DNA of 62,066 bases from Actinomycetes bacterium (GCA_021838445.1 JAKCDU010000021.1:1-62066), one strand, 5' to 3'; numbered from the stretch's first letter, positions 32,273 to 55,188 are shown. The notes: generated by a model not told the origin, from the letters alone. Translations and numbers: made by a program.

Positions 32273-32715
32273 GGTGTTGCGTCTCCTTGTTCGTTGTGCG
32301 CCGCATCGGCGTCTGATTGGGTTAAAGCCGACTGTGCGCCGGAGAGGCCCTGGCTGATCGAGTTCCAATCAGCCGAGGACATACCGGCGTACTGGTCGGA
32401 GGGCTGGGTCGGGTCGGCGGCTGGGGCCGGTGAGGAACCCGTTGCCGATCCGCTCCCGGTTGCACTCCCGGAGCCGGACGACCCGTTCGGCGTCGATCCC
32501 GACGTCGCCGGGGCGACCTGGGGGGCGTGGGAGGCCGCCCCACTCCCGGAGGACGTCCCCGGGAGCGTCGGAGCTTGGGTGCTGGCGGTGACCGGGGAGG
32601 AAGCCCCGGCGCCGGTGGCACGGCTGGTAGCGGCTGGGCCACCAGCTCCACATGCTGACGCGGCCAGCGCAACCAGCGCCACGGCAGCTGCTGTTCCCAA
32701 CCTGATGACCGCCAC
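32269..32715 (-). CDS. Small Ser/Gly-rich lipoprotein
   Basis: A 148-residue product with a lipobox ending LAASAC (lipidated Cys about residue 22) and then a Ser/Gly/Thr-rich disordered stretch. The short C-terminal helix (SDQYAGMSSADWNSISQGL) is the only structured part. GTG start with GGAGG six bases upstream. First gene of a two-gene secreted-protein operon. Confidence 0.85.
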   Translation of the reverse strand: MAVIRLGTAAAVALVALAASACGAGGPAATSRATGAGASSPVTASTQAPTLPGTSSGSGAASHAPQVAPATSGSTPNGSSGSGSATGSGSATGSSPAPAADPTQPSDQYAGMSSADWNSISQGLSGAQSALTQSDADAAHNEQGDATP

Positions 32716-33266: not shown

Positions 33267-34790
33267 TCAGCCCACCCGGCCGAAGCCGATGGGGATGCCG
33301 TCCCAGTCGAGGTTCTCCACCTTGACGACAGTGCCGGGGGAGTCGGCGGTGATGATCTGGCCGTTGCCGATGTACATCGTGACGTGACCGGGCTCGGCTC
33401 CGTCGCCGGTGTCGTAGAACACCAGATCCCCGGGCTGGAGTTGGCTCTCGGAGATGCGGGTGGTCTCCTGGTACTGCGAGACGGTGTAGTGGGCCAGCTG
33501 GACCCCGGCCGCCTGCCACGCGTACATGACCAGCCCCGAGCAGTCGAAGGCGTTCGGCCCGGCCCCGGCCCACAGGTAGGGTTTGCCGACCTGGGCCAGG
33601 GCGGTGGCGACGGCGATCTGGGCTCCCGAAGCGGCCGGCGCGGCCACCGGGGCCGGTGCAGGTGCGGATGTCAGGCTGGAGGACAGCGCCACGGTCGAGT
33701 GCACCGCGGCGGCCTGGCTGGCCGACCCGGCCACCTCCAGCACCTGCCCCACCTCGATCAGGTTCGGGTTGGCTATGCCGTTGAGCTGGGCCAATGCCTC
33801 GAAGTTGGTCCCGAACCGGGCGGCTATGGAGGACAAAGTGTCGCCCGCCGCCACCGTGTAGCTGCTCCCTGCGGCACCCGACGTGCTCGACGCACCGGCC
33901 GAGGCCGGGGGGGCCGGGGCCGCCGGCGCGCCGCCACCGATGAGCAGCACCTGCCCCACCTCGATCAGGTTGGGGTTGGCCAGGGCGTTGAGCTGGGCCA
34001 GCGCCTCGTAGGTGGTCCCGAACCGGGCGGCGACGGCCGAGAGGGTGTCCCCCGCCACCACGGTGTAGCTCGACGGGGCGGCCTGGGCCACCAGCCCGAC
34101 CCCCGCGGCGGCCGGCACCCCTGCGCCGGCGGACGCCACCGGCCCCGGCGCGGCGGCCGCCGCCCCGGCCCCAGACAGCAGCGCCGCCCCGACCCCAGTG
34201 ACGCTCGCCGTGGCCGCGGCCGAGACCATCAGCGTGCGCATCGACTGGTCCTTGAGCCGCACCTGGGTGCTCTGCAAGGTGGCCAACCAGCGTTGACCGG
34301 CGGTGTCCTTGGGGGTTCGTCCCACGGCGACGGTCAGGGCGAACACGAGGGGAGCGAGAGCCCACCCGGCGGCGTACGACGCCATGAACCGGAGCAGGGC
34401 CAGCGTCTGGCGCCAAGCCGGAACGGCGTCGACGGCGACCATCCGGAGCGCGGACGGCTCGGGGTAGGAGTCCTGCGGCTCCAGGTGGAGGGAGGAGATG
34501 TCGGCGAGGAAGGCCAGCTCGTCGAGCGGGACCGGACCGTCCCCGGCGGCGGGGGCGAACGCGCGCTCGACGGCCAGCCGGCGGGAGCGCTGGAGGAGCG
34601 CCAGGTACGAACCGGTGACGACCACGGCCACGCTGAATACGGCCCAGGCCGCCGGCGAAGGCGCGCCCAGGGCGAACACCCCGCTCAGCCCGTCGAGGGC
34701 GGCCAGCGTGAGCAGCACCCGGCGGCGCCGGAACGTGGTGGGAGCCACCGTTCGGGGCGCCATCGTCATCGGTTCATCCACCAGCGTCAT
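33267..34790 (-). CDS. Membrane-anchored LysM-NlpC/P60 peptidoglycan hydrolase
   Basis: A 507-residue protein. A membrane module (about 21-215, four hydrophobic segments) is followed by two LysM domains (about 240-284 and 309-353) and a C-terminal NlpC/P60 peptidase (about 390-507). C417 lies in FDCSGLVMY and H469 in PGHVTMYIG. It should bind and cut peptide cross-links in the wall. Most NlpC/P60 proteins have a simple signal peptide; here the membrane module resembles that of the anti-sigma factor encoded at 35480-36655. Divergent from the ECF sigma gene. Confidence 0.93.
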
Positions 34791-34869
34791 ACGGCAGTCT
34801 CCTCCTCGGTCCCCCGCCTTCCTCGCCTCGAGGACAGCGGCCGCCTCACCTGGTTCTACGATCTCTACC

Positions 34870-34897
34870 GACCCCGAGATTGGCCAATCTGGGGGTC
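34870..34897. promoter_or_regulatory. 28-bp near-perfect palindrome between the wall hydrolase and the ECF sigma operon
   Basis: Two 14-bp arms (GACCCCGAGATTGG and its complement) match at 13 of 14 positions, with a perfect AGATTGGCCAATCT centre. It lies 23 bp before the sigma start and 79 bp before the hydrolase start. Because the genes diverge it cannot be a terminator of either, so an operator acting on both is likely. Confidence 0.6.
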
Positions 34898-34920
34898 ACC
34901 CCGACACGTATGACTCTTCG

Positions 34921-35490
34921 ATGACCCAGCCGGTCGATGACGACGCCCTTCTCGCCGGCATGGCGGCCGGCGACCGGGCCGCGGCCGCCAGCTTCGTGCG
35001 CCGTCACGCCGGCGCCGTCACCGGGGTGGCCTTCCACGTGGTGCGCGACCGGGCCCTAGCCGAGGACATCTCCCAGGAGACGTTTCTGAGGGCCTGGCGG
35101 TCGGCAGGCACGTTCGACCCGCGGCGGGGTAACGCCAGATCTTGGCTTCTGTCCATAAGCCGTAACGCCGCCATCGACGTGGTCCGGGTCCGCCAAGCGT
35201 CCCCGGTGAGCCCCGAGCACCTCACCGACCTGCTCGCCGCCGAGACCAGCCTCAGCGCCCCCGATGACCGTCTGGTCGCCGAGGCCGACGCGGTGGAGGT
35301 CCGTCGGGCGTTGGACCGGCTGCCCGACGAGCAGCGCCGAGCGGTGCTGCTCGCCGCCGTGGCGGGCCGCAGCGCGGCCGAGGTGGGCCGGATCGAGGGC
35401 ATCCCTCTCGGTACGGCCAAGACCCGGATCCGGGCCGCTCTCATGCGCATGCGCGACTCACTCGAAGTGGAGGCCCGCCGTGGCGTATGA
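34921..35490 (+). CDS. ECF sigma factor
   Basis: A 189-residue sigma-70 family ECF factor. Region 2 reads DRALAEDISQETFLRAWRSAGTFDP and region 4 reads LDRLPDEQRRAVLLAAVAG with the HTH GRIEGIPLGTAKTRIRAAL. The ATG at 34921 is the first Met that fits the family. It overlaps the anti-sigma gene by 11 bp. Confidence 0.95.
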   Translation: MTQPVDDDALLAGMAAGDRAAAASFVRRHAGAVTGVAFHVVRDRALAEDISQETFLRAWRSAGTFDPRRGNARSWLLSISRNAAIDVVRVRQASPVSPEHLTDLLAAETSLSAPDDRLVAEADAVEVRRALDRLPDEQRRAVLLAAVAGRSAAEVGRIEGIPLGTAKTRIRAALMRMRDSLEVEARRGV

Positions 35491-36655
35491 GGACTGCAGC
35501 CAATACCGGTCCGAAGCGGTGGACCTGGTGTTGGGTGACCTACCCGGGGATCGACGGGCCCAGGTGGTCGCCCACATCGAGGGGTGCCGGGGCTGCAGCA
35601 GGGAGGTGGCCGCCCTCAACGCCACGCTCGACGCCCTGAGCGCGGCCACGTTGCCCGTGGAACCCCGTTACGGCTTCGTCGAGGGGGTGCTCGCCGCCGC
35701 CGAGCGCGACCCGGCCCTGGCTGCCCTCACCTCCGCCGAGGCCAGATGGGTGCCCGAGGCGGCCGGGGCGGGCTGGGTGGCGGCACCGGGGGTGCCCGAC
35801 CACCCGGTGCGGGCGGCCAGCGGTCGTCCCCGGCGGGAGGCCCGTCGGCCGGTGGCGGTGGTCATGCGCCGCCGACGGACCCTACTCGGCCTCACCGGCC
35901 TCACCATTCTCCTGGCCGTCCTGGCCGCCGGCTCGGGGAGCTGGGTGTTCGCCGGCTCGGCCATCGCCTTCGCCGTCCTCGACGTCGCCTACCTGGGCCT
36001 GGTCATGGCCGTGACCCACTTGAAGGCCCGGGAGGAACTAACCGGCGGTCTGGCGGCCGACGATGGCTGGTGGCGCCAGCTCGTGCCGGCACCGGGCCGG
36101 TCCGCCTCTCCGGACCCCGCGGCGGGAGCAGCACCGGTGCCGGCACTTACGGCGGTGGCGCCGGTGTCGGTGGACGACCTGGCCCTGGCCCGCTTCGTCC
36201 TGTCCTACTTCACCGGCTGGCTTCTCATGCCGGTGGTGGCCCTCATCGCCGTGGTCCGCGGCGACCTGACGGGCGTGGAGCAGTCCCCCGTGCTGGGGCG
36301 GATCGTCGCTCTGCAACGCCAGGGGCGGTCCCAGTCGCTGCGGCTACTGGCAGCGGGCGCTACGACCGTGGCGGTGGCCAGCGGGGGGACCCTGGCCGCA
36401 GTGGTGGCGCCCAGCATGGCCTCGGCGGCCACCGCGGTGCCGGCGGCCCACGCGGCGGCGGCCCCGGCTGCGGCGGCCCCCTCGGGGCCGGCTGCCGGCC
36501 CGTACGCGCCGAGTTCAACCTTCTCGGCGGCGTCCACCGATCTGACCGTCACCTACCTGGCCCAGCTGAGCCCCGTCACAGACGAGGCCGCCTCGGGGAG
36601 CCCGTCGCCGGCCGCTCCACCCGACACCGCGCGGCCGGGTGCCGACAGGCACTAG
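35480..36655 (+). CDS. Membrane anti-sigma factor with zinc-binding (ZAS) domain
   Basis: A 391-residue protein. The N-terminal zinc-finger anti-sigma domain has H32-x3-C36-x2-C39 (HIEGCRGC). Four hydrophobic segments follow (about 133-155, 158-180, 233-260, 287-312), then an Ala/Pro-rich outer tail of about 80 residues. It should hold the ECF factor at the membrane until a signal arrives. The GTG at 35480 has GGAGG upstream. It is longer than usual for this class because of the extra membrane module shared with the NlpC/P60 protein. Confidence 0.9.
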   Translation: MAYEDCSQYRSEAVDLVLGDLPGDRRAQVVAHIEGCRGCSREVAALNATLDALSAATLPVEPRYGFVEGVLAAAERDPALAALTSAEARWVPEAAGAGWVAAPGVPDHPVRAASGRPRREARRPVAVVMRRRRTLLGLTGLTILLAVLAAGSGSWVFAGSAIAFAVLDVAYLGLVMAVTHLKAREELTGGLAADDGWWRQLVPAPGRSASPDPAAGAAPVPALTAVAPVSVDDLALARFVLSYFTGWLLMPVVALIAVVRGDLTGVEQSPVLGRIVALQRQGRSQSLRLLAAGATTVAVASGGTLAAVVAPSMASAATAVPAAHAAAAPAAAAPSGPAAGPYAPSSTFSAASTDLTVTYLAQLSPVTDEAASGSPSPAAPPDTARPGADRH

Positions 36656-36744: not shown

Positions 36745-37704
36745 TCAGGCCCCCGAACCTGTGAACAGGATGTTCAGCGGCGCGGCTGTGCTCGGTAACT
36801 TCACCGAGGAGCCGTTGGCCTCGATGTGGACCCCCGGAGGGAAACCGATACGTATCCACACATCCGTAGCCTGGAAGGCTTTCACCGTCCCCTGGGTCAG
36901 CACCCCTTGGTACATAAGAGGTCCCGAAGCCGAGCTCGACCGCAGCTCCACCCAACAGCCGGCGGTGGCCGACACCGACAGGCTCACGACTCGGGCGCCG
37001 ACGGTGTAGTCGACCTGTGAGGGGTTCGAGCCGAGCGGCACCAGGACCGCCGGTAACGTCGTGGCCGGAGCGCTGAGCGGTGCCGCGACCCTGGCCGGCG
37101 GGTGGGCCGTGGGGGAGATGGGCCGCAGCGGTGACGGCGGCCGCGACGACGGTGCGGCGCTCAGCATCACGACGGTGACGGCGGCGGCGGCGACGACGGC
37201 CGCACCCGCGGCGGCCGTCGCCGGCAAGCCCAGGCGGCGACGGGCGGACATCCGTGACGGTCCGTGGGCCTTGGCGTGGCGGGGGGAGCGCCCGCCGACG
37301 GGGGGCTCCGCTCGGGCGTCGGCATCGAGACCACAGAAGCCGGGCGGGTCATCGCCCACCTGTCCCGTCTCGACCTGACGGGCCCGGGCGGTCTGCCCGG
37401 TCGCGGGCGAGGGATGGCCGCCCAAGGCACGGCTGGTCCGGGGACCTGAGCCAGCAGGGCGGTCCGCCCCGACTGCTGCGTCGAAGACGGCGCGGCGGTC
37501 GCCTCCGAGCTGGGGCCAGGGGCCCCGGGCGTCGCCCCCGCAGCCGCGTTCGAGCACTCGGACATGGGGTATGGGGCCGCCGTCGGTGGCTATCGGCGAC
37601 TCCCTGTCGGGGGTAGCCAGGTGCTGAAGGCGTTCGAGCACGTCGCGGTGAGCTTCGAGGGAGCGCTCGTCACCGCCGAACCAGCGAAGCCATCGGGCGG
37701 CCAC
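36745..37704 (-). CDS. Membrane protein with C-terminal DUF4115/RodZ-like domain
   Basis: A 319-residue product with an N-terminal short helical segment, a long low-complexity stretch (about 40-150), one membrane helix (about 160-182) and a C-terminal beta domain. The C-terminal domain (CWVELRSSS ... VKAFQATDVWIRIGFPPGVHIEANG) has the DUF4115 pattern found at the C terminus of RodZ. The helix-turn-helix of RodZ is missing. GTG start 4 bp after the DUF4388 gene. Confidence 0.75.
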   Translation of the reverse strand: MAARWLRWFGGDERSLEAHRDVLERLQHLATPDRESPIATDGGPIPHVRVLERGCGGDARGPWPQLGGDRRAVFDAAVGADRPAGSGPRTSRALGGHPSPATGQTARARQVETGQVGDDPPGFCGLDADARAEPPVGGRSPRHAKAHGPSRMSARRRLGLPATAAAGAAVVAAAAVTVVMLSAAPSSRPPSPLRPISPTAHPPARVAAPLSAPATTLPAVLVPLGSNPSQVDYTVGARVVSLSVSATAGCWVELRSSSASGPLMYQGVLTQGTVKAFQATDVWIRIGFPPGVHIEANGSSVKLPSTAAPLNILFTGSGA

Positions 37705-37708
37705 GCCG

Positions 37709-38653
37709 TCACCACCATCGAGGTCGCAGATAACCCCGCCGCTCGGATGCGTGACCTAGCCCGACCGTCGACGGCCTGGTCGTCAGGACCGGTGGCGCTG
37801 CGGCCCGCTGGTCCAAAGGCGCGTCTGATCCCCCCGCCCCCTCCAGCGCGGCGGGGGGTGGAGGCGGCTCCGGCCGAGCGGGGATATCGCCGGTCGGCCT
37901 TTGCGGAGGGCCCGCCGCCGACACCCCGTCGGTGGACTGTTCGGCTTCGCCGATCTCAGCGGTGGGTGGATCGTCGAAGATCAGGTCGTCGGCCACGAAC
38001 ACCGGTATGTGCTGGCCGCTCTCGGGGCGGTCCAAGCGTACCTTGGGCAGGTTCTTGACCCGCCCCTTCGGATGCTGCATCTCCACCGCACCCTGCTCGA
38101 TGAGGGCCTGTAGGACCTCGCAGAAGTCGAGGACCTCGAGCTCCAGTCGTCGGGCCAGGCCGACCACGTTCCGTCGGCCGTCGATGGCTACCAGGACCTT
38201 CCAGGCTTCGTCGTCGACGGTGATCTCGTTGCCCAGGCTCTCGGCCAGTCGGGGGACCGCTTCCAACGATCGGATGATGGGCTCCAGTCGGCGCCACCGC
38301 TCGAGGCGGTTCCGGGCCGCGTCCAGCGCCTCCTGCAGATCGCAGCGTTCGTCCGGCAGGGGTTCCACTTCTTCCTGGGCGACGAACTCGAAGCTTCCCC
38401 GGGCCGATTTGAGAGCGTCGAAACAGATGTCCTCGAGCAGGCTCCTGCCCTTGGTCTTCAGCTCCAGGGTGTTCATGCCCGTCACCTCGGCCATCACCGA
38501 CTGGCCGGCACCCAGCCAGATACTGGCCAGCACCGTCTCTGTGCGTACCTGCAGGCGCCCCGTGCTGCTTTTGCGGATGAGCAGGTCGACCAGTTCGGCG
38601 AAGTCGAGGACATCGAAGGTTCCAGCCAGTGGCACGTCCGTCTCGCATTTCAT
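37709..38653 (-). CDS. DUF4388 (PatA N-terminal-like) protein
   Basis: A 314-residue protein. An N-terminal DUF4388-like domain (LAGTFDVLDFAELVDLLIRKSSTGRLQV) is followed by a helical middle and a winged-helix-like segment (RRNVVGLARRLELEVLDFCEVLQALIEQGAV), then a Pro-rich tail. DUF4388 proteins occur in gliding/polarity and signalling systems. A TTG start at 38758 would add 35 residues; the ATG at 38653 begins just before the domain. It is paired with the DUF4115 gene. Confidence 0.8.
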   Translation of the reverse strand: MKCETDVPLAGTFDVLDFAELVDLLIRKSSTGRLQVRTETVLASIWLGAGQSVMAEVTGMNTLELKTKGRSLLEDICFDALKSARGSFEFVAQEEVEPLPDERCDLQEALDAARNRLERWRRLEPIIRSLEAVPRLAESLGNEITVDDEAWKVLVAIDGRRNVVGLARRLELEVLDFCEVLQALIEQGAVEMQHPKGRVKNLPKVRLDRPESGQHIPVFVADDLIFDDPPTAEIGEAEQSTDGVSAAGPPQRPTGDIPARPEPPPPPAALEGAGGSDAPLDQRAAAPPVLTTRPSTVGLGHASERRGYLRPRWW

Positions 38654-38936
38654 TCGGAAGCGGTCATCCGGCCGAAGCCGTTCGGCGCGGCCGATCACAT
38701 CCCGAGTCTCGCGTTGCTCGGAGGGAATCAGTACGCGGTCGACGAGAATCTTCCCCAAGGCGGCGGGAGGAAACCGCGCCCCGGACCCCGGACCCCGGAC
38801 GGCGGGGCGCGCACAGCGGGTCCTCTTGCGGTCGCCGCGGTCACGCCCGGGTGTCGCTTGTGCTCAGCTGGGGGTCAGCAGCAGCGATCCTCACAGGGCG
38901 TCACCTTGGGCCCGTCGAGGAGGAATGGAGGGTGCA

Positions 38937-55115: not shown

Positions 55116-55188
55116 GCGCTCGTAGCCCAATGGATAGAGCATCTGACTACGGATCAGAAGGTTGGGGGTTCGAGTCCCTCCGAGCGCG
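55116..55188 (+). tRNA. tRNA-Arg (anticodon ACG)
   Basis: A 73-nt cloverleaf. Acceptor GCGCTCG pairs with CGAGCGC, the anticodon stem TCTGA/TCAGA holds the loop CTACGGA (anticodon ACG), and the T arm contains TTCGAGT. CCA is not encoded. The 3' part is duplicated 795 bp downstream. Confidence 0.95.

Follow-up and report, generated by a model that had tools for sequence, protein, structure and literature searches.

How bacteria, particularly actinobacteria, gauge the state of their peptidoglycan and set the levels of their wall hydrolases is an open question, and it arises in concrete form at a locus of an uncultured member of an acidophile-rich actinobacterial family. In a 62,066-nucleotide stretch of this genome (the window), a LysM-NlpC/P60 wall hydrolase is encoded divergently from an ECF sigma factor and a zinc anti-sigma factor, and an initial annotation, made by eye, proposed that hydrolase and anti-sigma factor share one membrane module and belong to a wall-sensing circuit. 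Why would an anti-sigma factor and a wall hydrolase have such a module in common, and what would connect them? The reading that we regard as probable is that the ECF sigma factor, a zinc anti-sigma factor descended from a wall hydrolase, and the membrane-bound LysM-NlpC/P60 hydrolase constitute a single wall-homeostasis circuit. The wall-related regulation in the earlier proposal is well supported, by intergenic ECF promoter motifs facing in both directions and by natural fusions in two other genera; that the signal is a wall defect, we infer.

The three genes and their domains

The features of the locus, numbered from the first letter of the window, are as follows.

33267-34790 (-): LysM-NlpC/P60 wall hydrolase, 507 aa, with a subfamily A membrane module at its N-terminus (Pfam and orthologues)
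33309-33590 (-): NlpC/P60 catalytic domain of the hydrolase, aa 401-494 (Pfam NLPC_P60, 8.3e-25)
33732-34073 (-): two LysM domains of the hydrolase, about aa 240-353 (Pfam LysM, two stretches)
34146-34742 (-): membrane module of the hydrolase, aa 17-215 (alignments, hhalign, AlphaFold2)
34857-34883 (-): predicted ECF promoter of the hydrolase, CCAATC-N17-CGTA (motif; conserved in G001 and G002)
34878-34889 (no strand): palindrome GATTGGCCAATC with both -35 elements (sequence)
34884-34910 (+): predicted ECF promoter driving the sigma and anti-sigma genes, CCAATC-N17-CGTA (orthologous and paralogous ECF genes also have the motif upstream)
34921-35490 (+): ECF sigma factor, 189 aa (Sigma70_r2 9.8e-20, r4_2 2.6e-11)
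35480-36655 (+): zinc anti-sigma factor with a subfamily B membrane module, 391 aa (Pfam, gene call)
35495-35596 (+): zf-HC2 / ZAS domain of the anti-sigma factor, H-x3-C-x2-C (HIEGCRGC) (Pfam zf-HC2, 2.2e-5)
35834-36445 (+): membrane module of the anti-sigma factor, aa 119-322 (alignments, hhalign, tree, AlphaFold2)
36419-36427 (+): A-x-A, aa 314-316, at the end of the signal-peptide-like last helix of the anti-sigma factor (alignment)
36446-36652 (+): Ala/Pro-rich tail of the anti-sigma factor, predicted disordered (AlphaFold2 pLDDT 32-54)
36542-36583 (+): probable LysM remnant LTVTYLAQLSPVTD in the anti-sigma tail, aa 355-368 (comparison with the LysM of G031)

Pfam agrees with the initial annotation in placing a zinc anti-sigma domain beside one copy of the module and LysM and NlpC/P60 domains beside the other. 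The paired LysM domains of the hydrolase score 7e-35, its sequence carries the FDCSGL cysteine and the PGH histidine (PGHV) of a LysM-NlpC/P60 wall hydrolase, and its orthologues are 91% identical in G001 and 77% identical in G002. The sigma factor belongs to the ECF family, with regions 2 and 4 only and with 70.6 bits for Sigma70_r2 and 43.4 bits for Sigma70_r4_2, both over the cut-offs. The anti-sigma gene has a GTG start that overlaps the stop of the sigma gene, and its product scores 24.9 bits against a zf-HC2 cut-off of 22.2; the H-x3-C-x2-C motif is kept in five of five module-bearing anti-sigma factors. By motif and gene position it is a zinc-binding class I anti-sigma factor, for which inhibition of the sigma factor is predicted, and when an RsgI N-terminal domain was sought, Pfam at E <= 1 reported only zf-HC2. 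Two neighbouring genes were noted: the product of 36745-37704 (-) carries a RodZ C-terminal domain by Pfam (3e-8), a possible link to cell shape, and sequence related to it lies close to the ECF genes of both G001 and G002; 37709-38758 (-) encodes a DUF4388 protein with a possible winged-helix segment.

The analysis draws on few genomes, mostly metagenome assemblies, and a genome scan returned named relatives including Acidiferrimicrobium sp. IK and an Acidimicrobiaceae MAG; module hydrolases are present in Acidiferrimicrobium sp., but no anti-sigma factor with the module was found there. The G031 assembly is 80% complete and that of G001 is 7% contaminated, one G001 record being titled Acidobacteriota. 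The divergent layout of hydrolase and sigma/anti-sigma genes comes from three species of one genus (the window genome, G001 and G002).

Homology and descent of the membrane modules

The alignment first drawn by eye holds up, in that hhalign identifies the two membrane regions as full-length homologues and the motifs quoted for them are found in both proteins. Compared pairwise by BLASTP, the regions match with E = 7e-5 and 34% identity across 73 aa. An HMM-HMM comparison of profiles from five anti-sigma modules (A1) and seven hydrolase modules (A2) aligned 186 columns (probability 99.2, P = 2.1e-19, score 123.6), whereas the reversed A2 profile scored only 21.6 and the best of 100 shuffled profiles, their columns permuted inside blocks of eight so as to keep hydropathy, reached 48.6. 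Because these control profiles score far lower, the similarity exceeds generic hydrophobicity, and a coincidence of hydrophobic and basic residues is ruled out; the sequences establish a common ancestry of the two modules. Conserved in them are RRR at the start of the hairpin, a tyrosine at its end, [RK]F....GW.L.P, Q..R..S.R and the terminal A-x-A. AlphaFold2 predicts four helices in the same order in both, at residues 131-152, 155-193, 233-260 and 270-300 of the anti-sigma factor and, with low confidence, at 19-42, 46-78, 125-156 and 167-206 of the hydrolase. These models are weak (mean pLDDT 60 and 48, respectively), that of the anti-sigma factor being moderate overall, good in the zinc domain and hairpin and poor in helix 4 and the tail; a fold search with the model gave no significant match, the best being RslA at E 1.8.

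The hydrolase and the anti-sigma factor are not recent duplicates, because their modules fall in two deeply split subfamilies (A and B, each 100/100), the window hydrolase being in subfamily A; this rules out that the module was recently duplicated within the window genome. The near-identity of one 14-residue segment and LALARFVLSYFTGW was also considered as pair-specific co-evolution, and was rejected on the 20-residue segment of the unlinked G011. Full-length modules are almost confined to the family of the window genome (20 of 32 genomes there), and in the rest of the sampled order and phylum only the ~60-aa hairpin of the module was matched. In most module proteins the module is followed by LysM repeats and an NlpC/P60 domain; in G007 it precedes an M23-type domain, and L067 combines module and M23. 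Because NlpC/P60, M23-type or Rpf-like domains accompany it, the module is, judged by its domain company, a membrane module of wall-lytic enzymes. A third catalytic type was seen at L134 7557-8711 (+), from Centralia_MAG_56, where the module is fused to an Rpf-like transglycosylase domain and LysM. The C-terminal M23-like domains of L082 6485-8275, L070 6602-8572 and L067 8525-10312 look degenerate, their first metal-binding histidine being replaced, and they may bind peptidoglycan instead of cutting it.

The first hairpin of both window proteins is matched by NCBIfam profiles for SepX/GlpR, although neither protein is a member of that family because the curated cut-off is not reached (30.4 bits versus 110 for NF050101, in the hairpin only). 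Conversely, the module profile matches a SepX/GlpR-like protein of the window genome (C80, 4e-6), which has the same hairpin likewise ending in R-x-AEREM, and SepX/GlpR-sized proteins phylum-wide. The SepX/GlpR divisome membrane proteins thus resemble the module in a basic RRRR hairpin that ends in R-x-A-x-E-R-E-M, but they have no counterpart of helices 3-4 or of the LysM, NlpC or zinc domains. These matches speak for a competing explanation that we hold to be possible though clearly the less likely, namely that the module is a SepX/GlpR-like membrane tag that places wall enzymes and, independently, the anti-sigma factor at one place, such as the septum, where GlpR binds Glp and Wag31 (PMC10522489). 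The two proteins would then not touch, the anti-sigma factor would sense something else, and transcription would be their only functional link. That the module also carries Rpf-like and M23 domains, as a general carrier would, fits this explanation; against it, the match to SepX/GlpR is limited to the first ~60 aa, and the conserved second half (RF..GW..P, LQ..R..S.R.L and A-x-A) has no known match or role.

The origin of the anti-sigma factor, a main element of the wall-homeostasis circuit, is suggested by its relatives. Contig C7 of G009 and contig C836 of G031 each have an ECF gene with 78-81% identity to that of the window, followed by the gene for one fused protein in which the zinc domain and the module are joined to LysM repeats, two or three in number, and to an M23 domain that is degenerate. 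The five module anti-sigma factors form one clade (100/100) nested inside the clade of subfamily B hydrolases. ECF orthologues more than 75% identical occur only in five genomes, exactly those with a module anti-sigma factor, while ECF paralogues of 48-53% identity, including one in the window genome, have, where inspected, an ordinary short anti-sigma factor without the module. The tree thus points to descent of the anti-sigma factor from a subfamily B wall enzyme, and the most economical course would be that such an enzyme acquired a zinc anti-sigma domain at its N-terminus. In the genus of the window the wall-binding part would later have been lost, shrinking to a disordered tail. The anti-sigma tails of its three species hold a LysM-like stretch (VTYLAQLN...), which is clear in G002 and G001 and weaker in the window: against the LysM of G031, the G002 tail scores 57 (shuffle maximum 35), the G001 tail 43 (34) and the window tail 40, a weak score that 1 of 500 shuffles reached. 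A LysM remnant in the window tail is probable on this comparison. No zinc anti-sigma factor with LysM was found in a non-exhaustive search of the open-access literature, on which the novelty of this combination rests, and LysM is unmentioned in the text of the ASD classification paper (PMC7406223).

The initial annotation had gone further, in proposing that, if the homologous modules associate, release of the ECF factor could be gated directly by the grip of the hydrolase LysM domains on peptidoglycan. We consider this unlikely, even though LysM is covalently part of the anti-sigma factor in G009 and G031, the anti-sigma factor of the window genus has lost its own LysM and lies beside a divergent LysM hydrolase with a homologous module, and RsiP/PbpP is a case of an envelope enzyme as sensor for an ECF factor (PMC8092216). 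Between paralogues as deep as subfamilies A and B binding need not occur, the LysM parts may be cut off the module to judge by the invariant A-x-A, and co-targeting by a SepX/GlpR-like hairpin would explain the shared module equally well as contact between modules. Hetero-association, in which the LysM-anchored hydrolase would be a detachable wall-sensing subunit of an anti-sigma factor that formerly had its own LysM, is similarly doubtful. If true, a covalent wall sensor would have been split in two proteins, with the sensor also the effector and the target gene.

Promoter motifs and gene linkage

The 130-bp intergenic region contains the perfect 12-bp palindrome GATTGGCCAATC, from each half of which CCAATC is succeeded, at a distance of exactly 17 bp, by CGTA. 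None of 20,000 dinucleotide shuffles of this region holds either site, and the 4.0 Mb window genome has five sites of the form CCAATC-N16..18-CGTA, two of which are the back-to-back pair (reversed-pattern control, 4). G001 has exact copies of both sites; G002 has an exact copy on the sigma side and GCAATC-N17-CGTAGAACC on the hydrolase side. ECF genes of G031, G020, G029 and G013, and the G009 paralogue on C77, are preceded by this motif too, as expected for an autoregulated ECF promoter. The motif is absent upstream of the window-genome ECF paralogue at C33 and at the subfamily A hydrolases of other genera. As back-to-back ECF promoter motifs share a palindromic -35, we predict that the sigma factor directly transcribes the hydrolase gene, an arrangement kept by all three species of the genus. 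The motif may instead be read by a paralogous ECF factor, since it is also found before paralogues in other genomes, which counts against the circuit. That the palindrome is the operator of an unrelated regulator, leaving the hydrolase outside the sigma regulon and the neighbourhood incidental, is improbable: its perfection in the window and the unlinked module-family hydrolases of other genera would fit, but it is imperfect in G002 and not perfect at a paralogous ECF gene of G020 where CCAATC-N17-CGTA is yet kept, both CGTA elements keep their exact 17-bp distance, and TGGTTCTACGATCT on the hydrolase side is conserved in three species while the spacer diverged.

Several further observations concern these sites. 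The predicted -10 (CGTA) lies only 10 bp before the sigma start codon (34907-34921), which suggests a nearly leaderless sigma mRNA; the leader of the hydrolase is ~66 nt long and includes GGAGGAG as its ribosome site. A third CCAATC-N17-CGTA site at 32365-32391 (+), in or antisense to minus-strand genes and kept in G001, could be an antisense promoter or a chance match in coding sequence. The two other sites, outside the window and with spacers of 18 and 16, were not judged promoters.

The linkage of the two genes expected in related genomes is found in three of three genomes of the genus and is confined to it, the hydrolase being unlinked elsewhere. The subfamily A hydrolases of other genera mostly adjoin tRNA-Arg(ACG), as seen at eight loci (L065, L069, L071, L073, L074, L075, L079 and L085). 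This neighbourhood is absent in the genus of the window, where tRNA-Arg(ACG) lies at 55116, 20 kb from the hydrolase. Because the subfamily A hydrolases of other genera lack the motif and mostly adjoin this tRNA gene, it seems that in the window genus the hydrolase gene was relocated beside that of the ECF factor and came under its control. For the same reason the circuit is, by gene context, specific to that genus, which also counts against it as the best explanation.

A candidate wall-homeostasis circuit and its relatives

How would the circuit operate? The A-x-A at the end of the module is invariant in 13 of 13 aligned modules (alignment A5), helix 4, which it terminates, is weakly hydrophobic and rich in Ala, Thr and Gly, and the loop preceding helix 4 has a net positive charge in nearly all family members (0 to +5). 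Because of these three properties helix 4 resembles an internal signal peptide, which speaks for an exported C-terminal part and puts signal peptidase forward as a candidate site-1 protease for the anti-sigma factor. Against this, with four helices and the N-terminus in the cytoplasm, the C-terminus would also lie inside unless helix 3 were re-entrant or interfacial, as it must be if the C-terminal part is exported. In the wall-homeostasis circuit, the zinc domain of the anti-sigma factor would hold the sigma factor at the membrane until a wall defect, sensed by the module or the ectodomain, left the anti-sigma factor open to proteolysis, with the signal-peptidase-like A-x-A as the probable first site and a further cut within the membrane. 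The freed sigma factor would read the two back-to-back putative promoters with their one palindromic -35, raising its own operon and the hydrolase, and the hydrolase would restore wall turnover and so end the signal.

Known systems resemble parts of this scheme. In Bacillus subtilis, SigI is no ECF factor under the control of a zinc ASD, RsgI enters the membrane with a single segment and, to our knowledge, LytE is secreted and has no module in common with RsgI; in these respects all three differ from the window trio. The likeness is that SigI controls the LysM/NlpC-type LytE (PMC7299342, PMC7478892), so that a LysM-NlpC/P60 D,L-endopeptidase is transcribed by a sigma factor which is itself restrained by a membrane anti-sigma factor whose extracytoplasmic part is disordered (PMC7299342, PMC7478892, PMC10128001). 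The best reading of the window circuit is as an analogue of SigI-RsgI-LytE with what would be a new kind of anti-sigma factor.

In Clostridium thermocellum, the RsgI paralogues have fused sensing or catalytic ectodomains. They are likewise anti-sigma factors that sense extracellular polysaccharide substrates (PMC12203970), but their ligands are plant polysaccharides, and their anti-sigma domain and sigma family are different. In Bacillus thuringiensis, the SigP-RsiP-PbpP-SipP system resembles the window locus: its ECF factor is paired with a membrane anti-sigma factor that has a signal-peptidase site, and activation depends on an envelope enzyme. RsiP is cut by signal peptidase, and PbpP is the sensor (PMC8844934, PMC8092216). 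Unlike the hydrolase, PbpP is a penicillin-binding protein without a reported shared module. By analogy, the A-x-A of the window anti-sigma factor is a candidate for RsiP-like site-1 cleavage. The class I zinc-binding anti-sigma factors (ASDI, e.g., RslA and RskA) have the same N-terminal H-x3-C-x2-C domain and a gene that follows the ECF gene, but in the window protein a four-helix module common with wall hydrolases replaces the usual membrane part, and its relatives have a LysM and M23-like ectodomain.

A previously undescribed membrane module is thus found on wall enzymes of the NlpC/P60, M23-like and Rpf-like types. In one branch of its family a wall hydrolase appears to have been converted to an anti-sigma factor, and with a paralogous hydrolase as the predicted target gene, the locus would form a compact sensor-effector loop.
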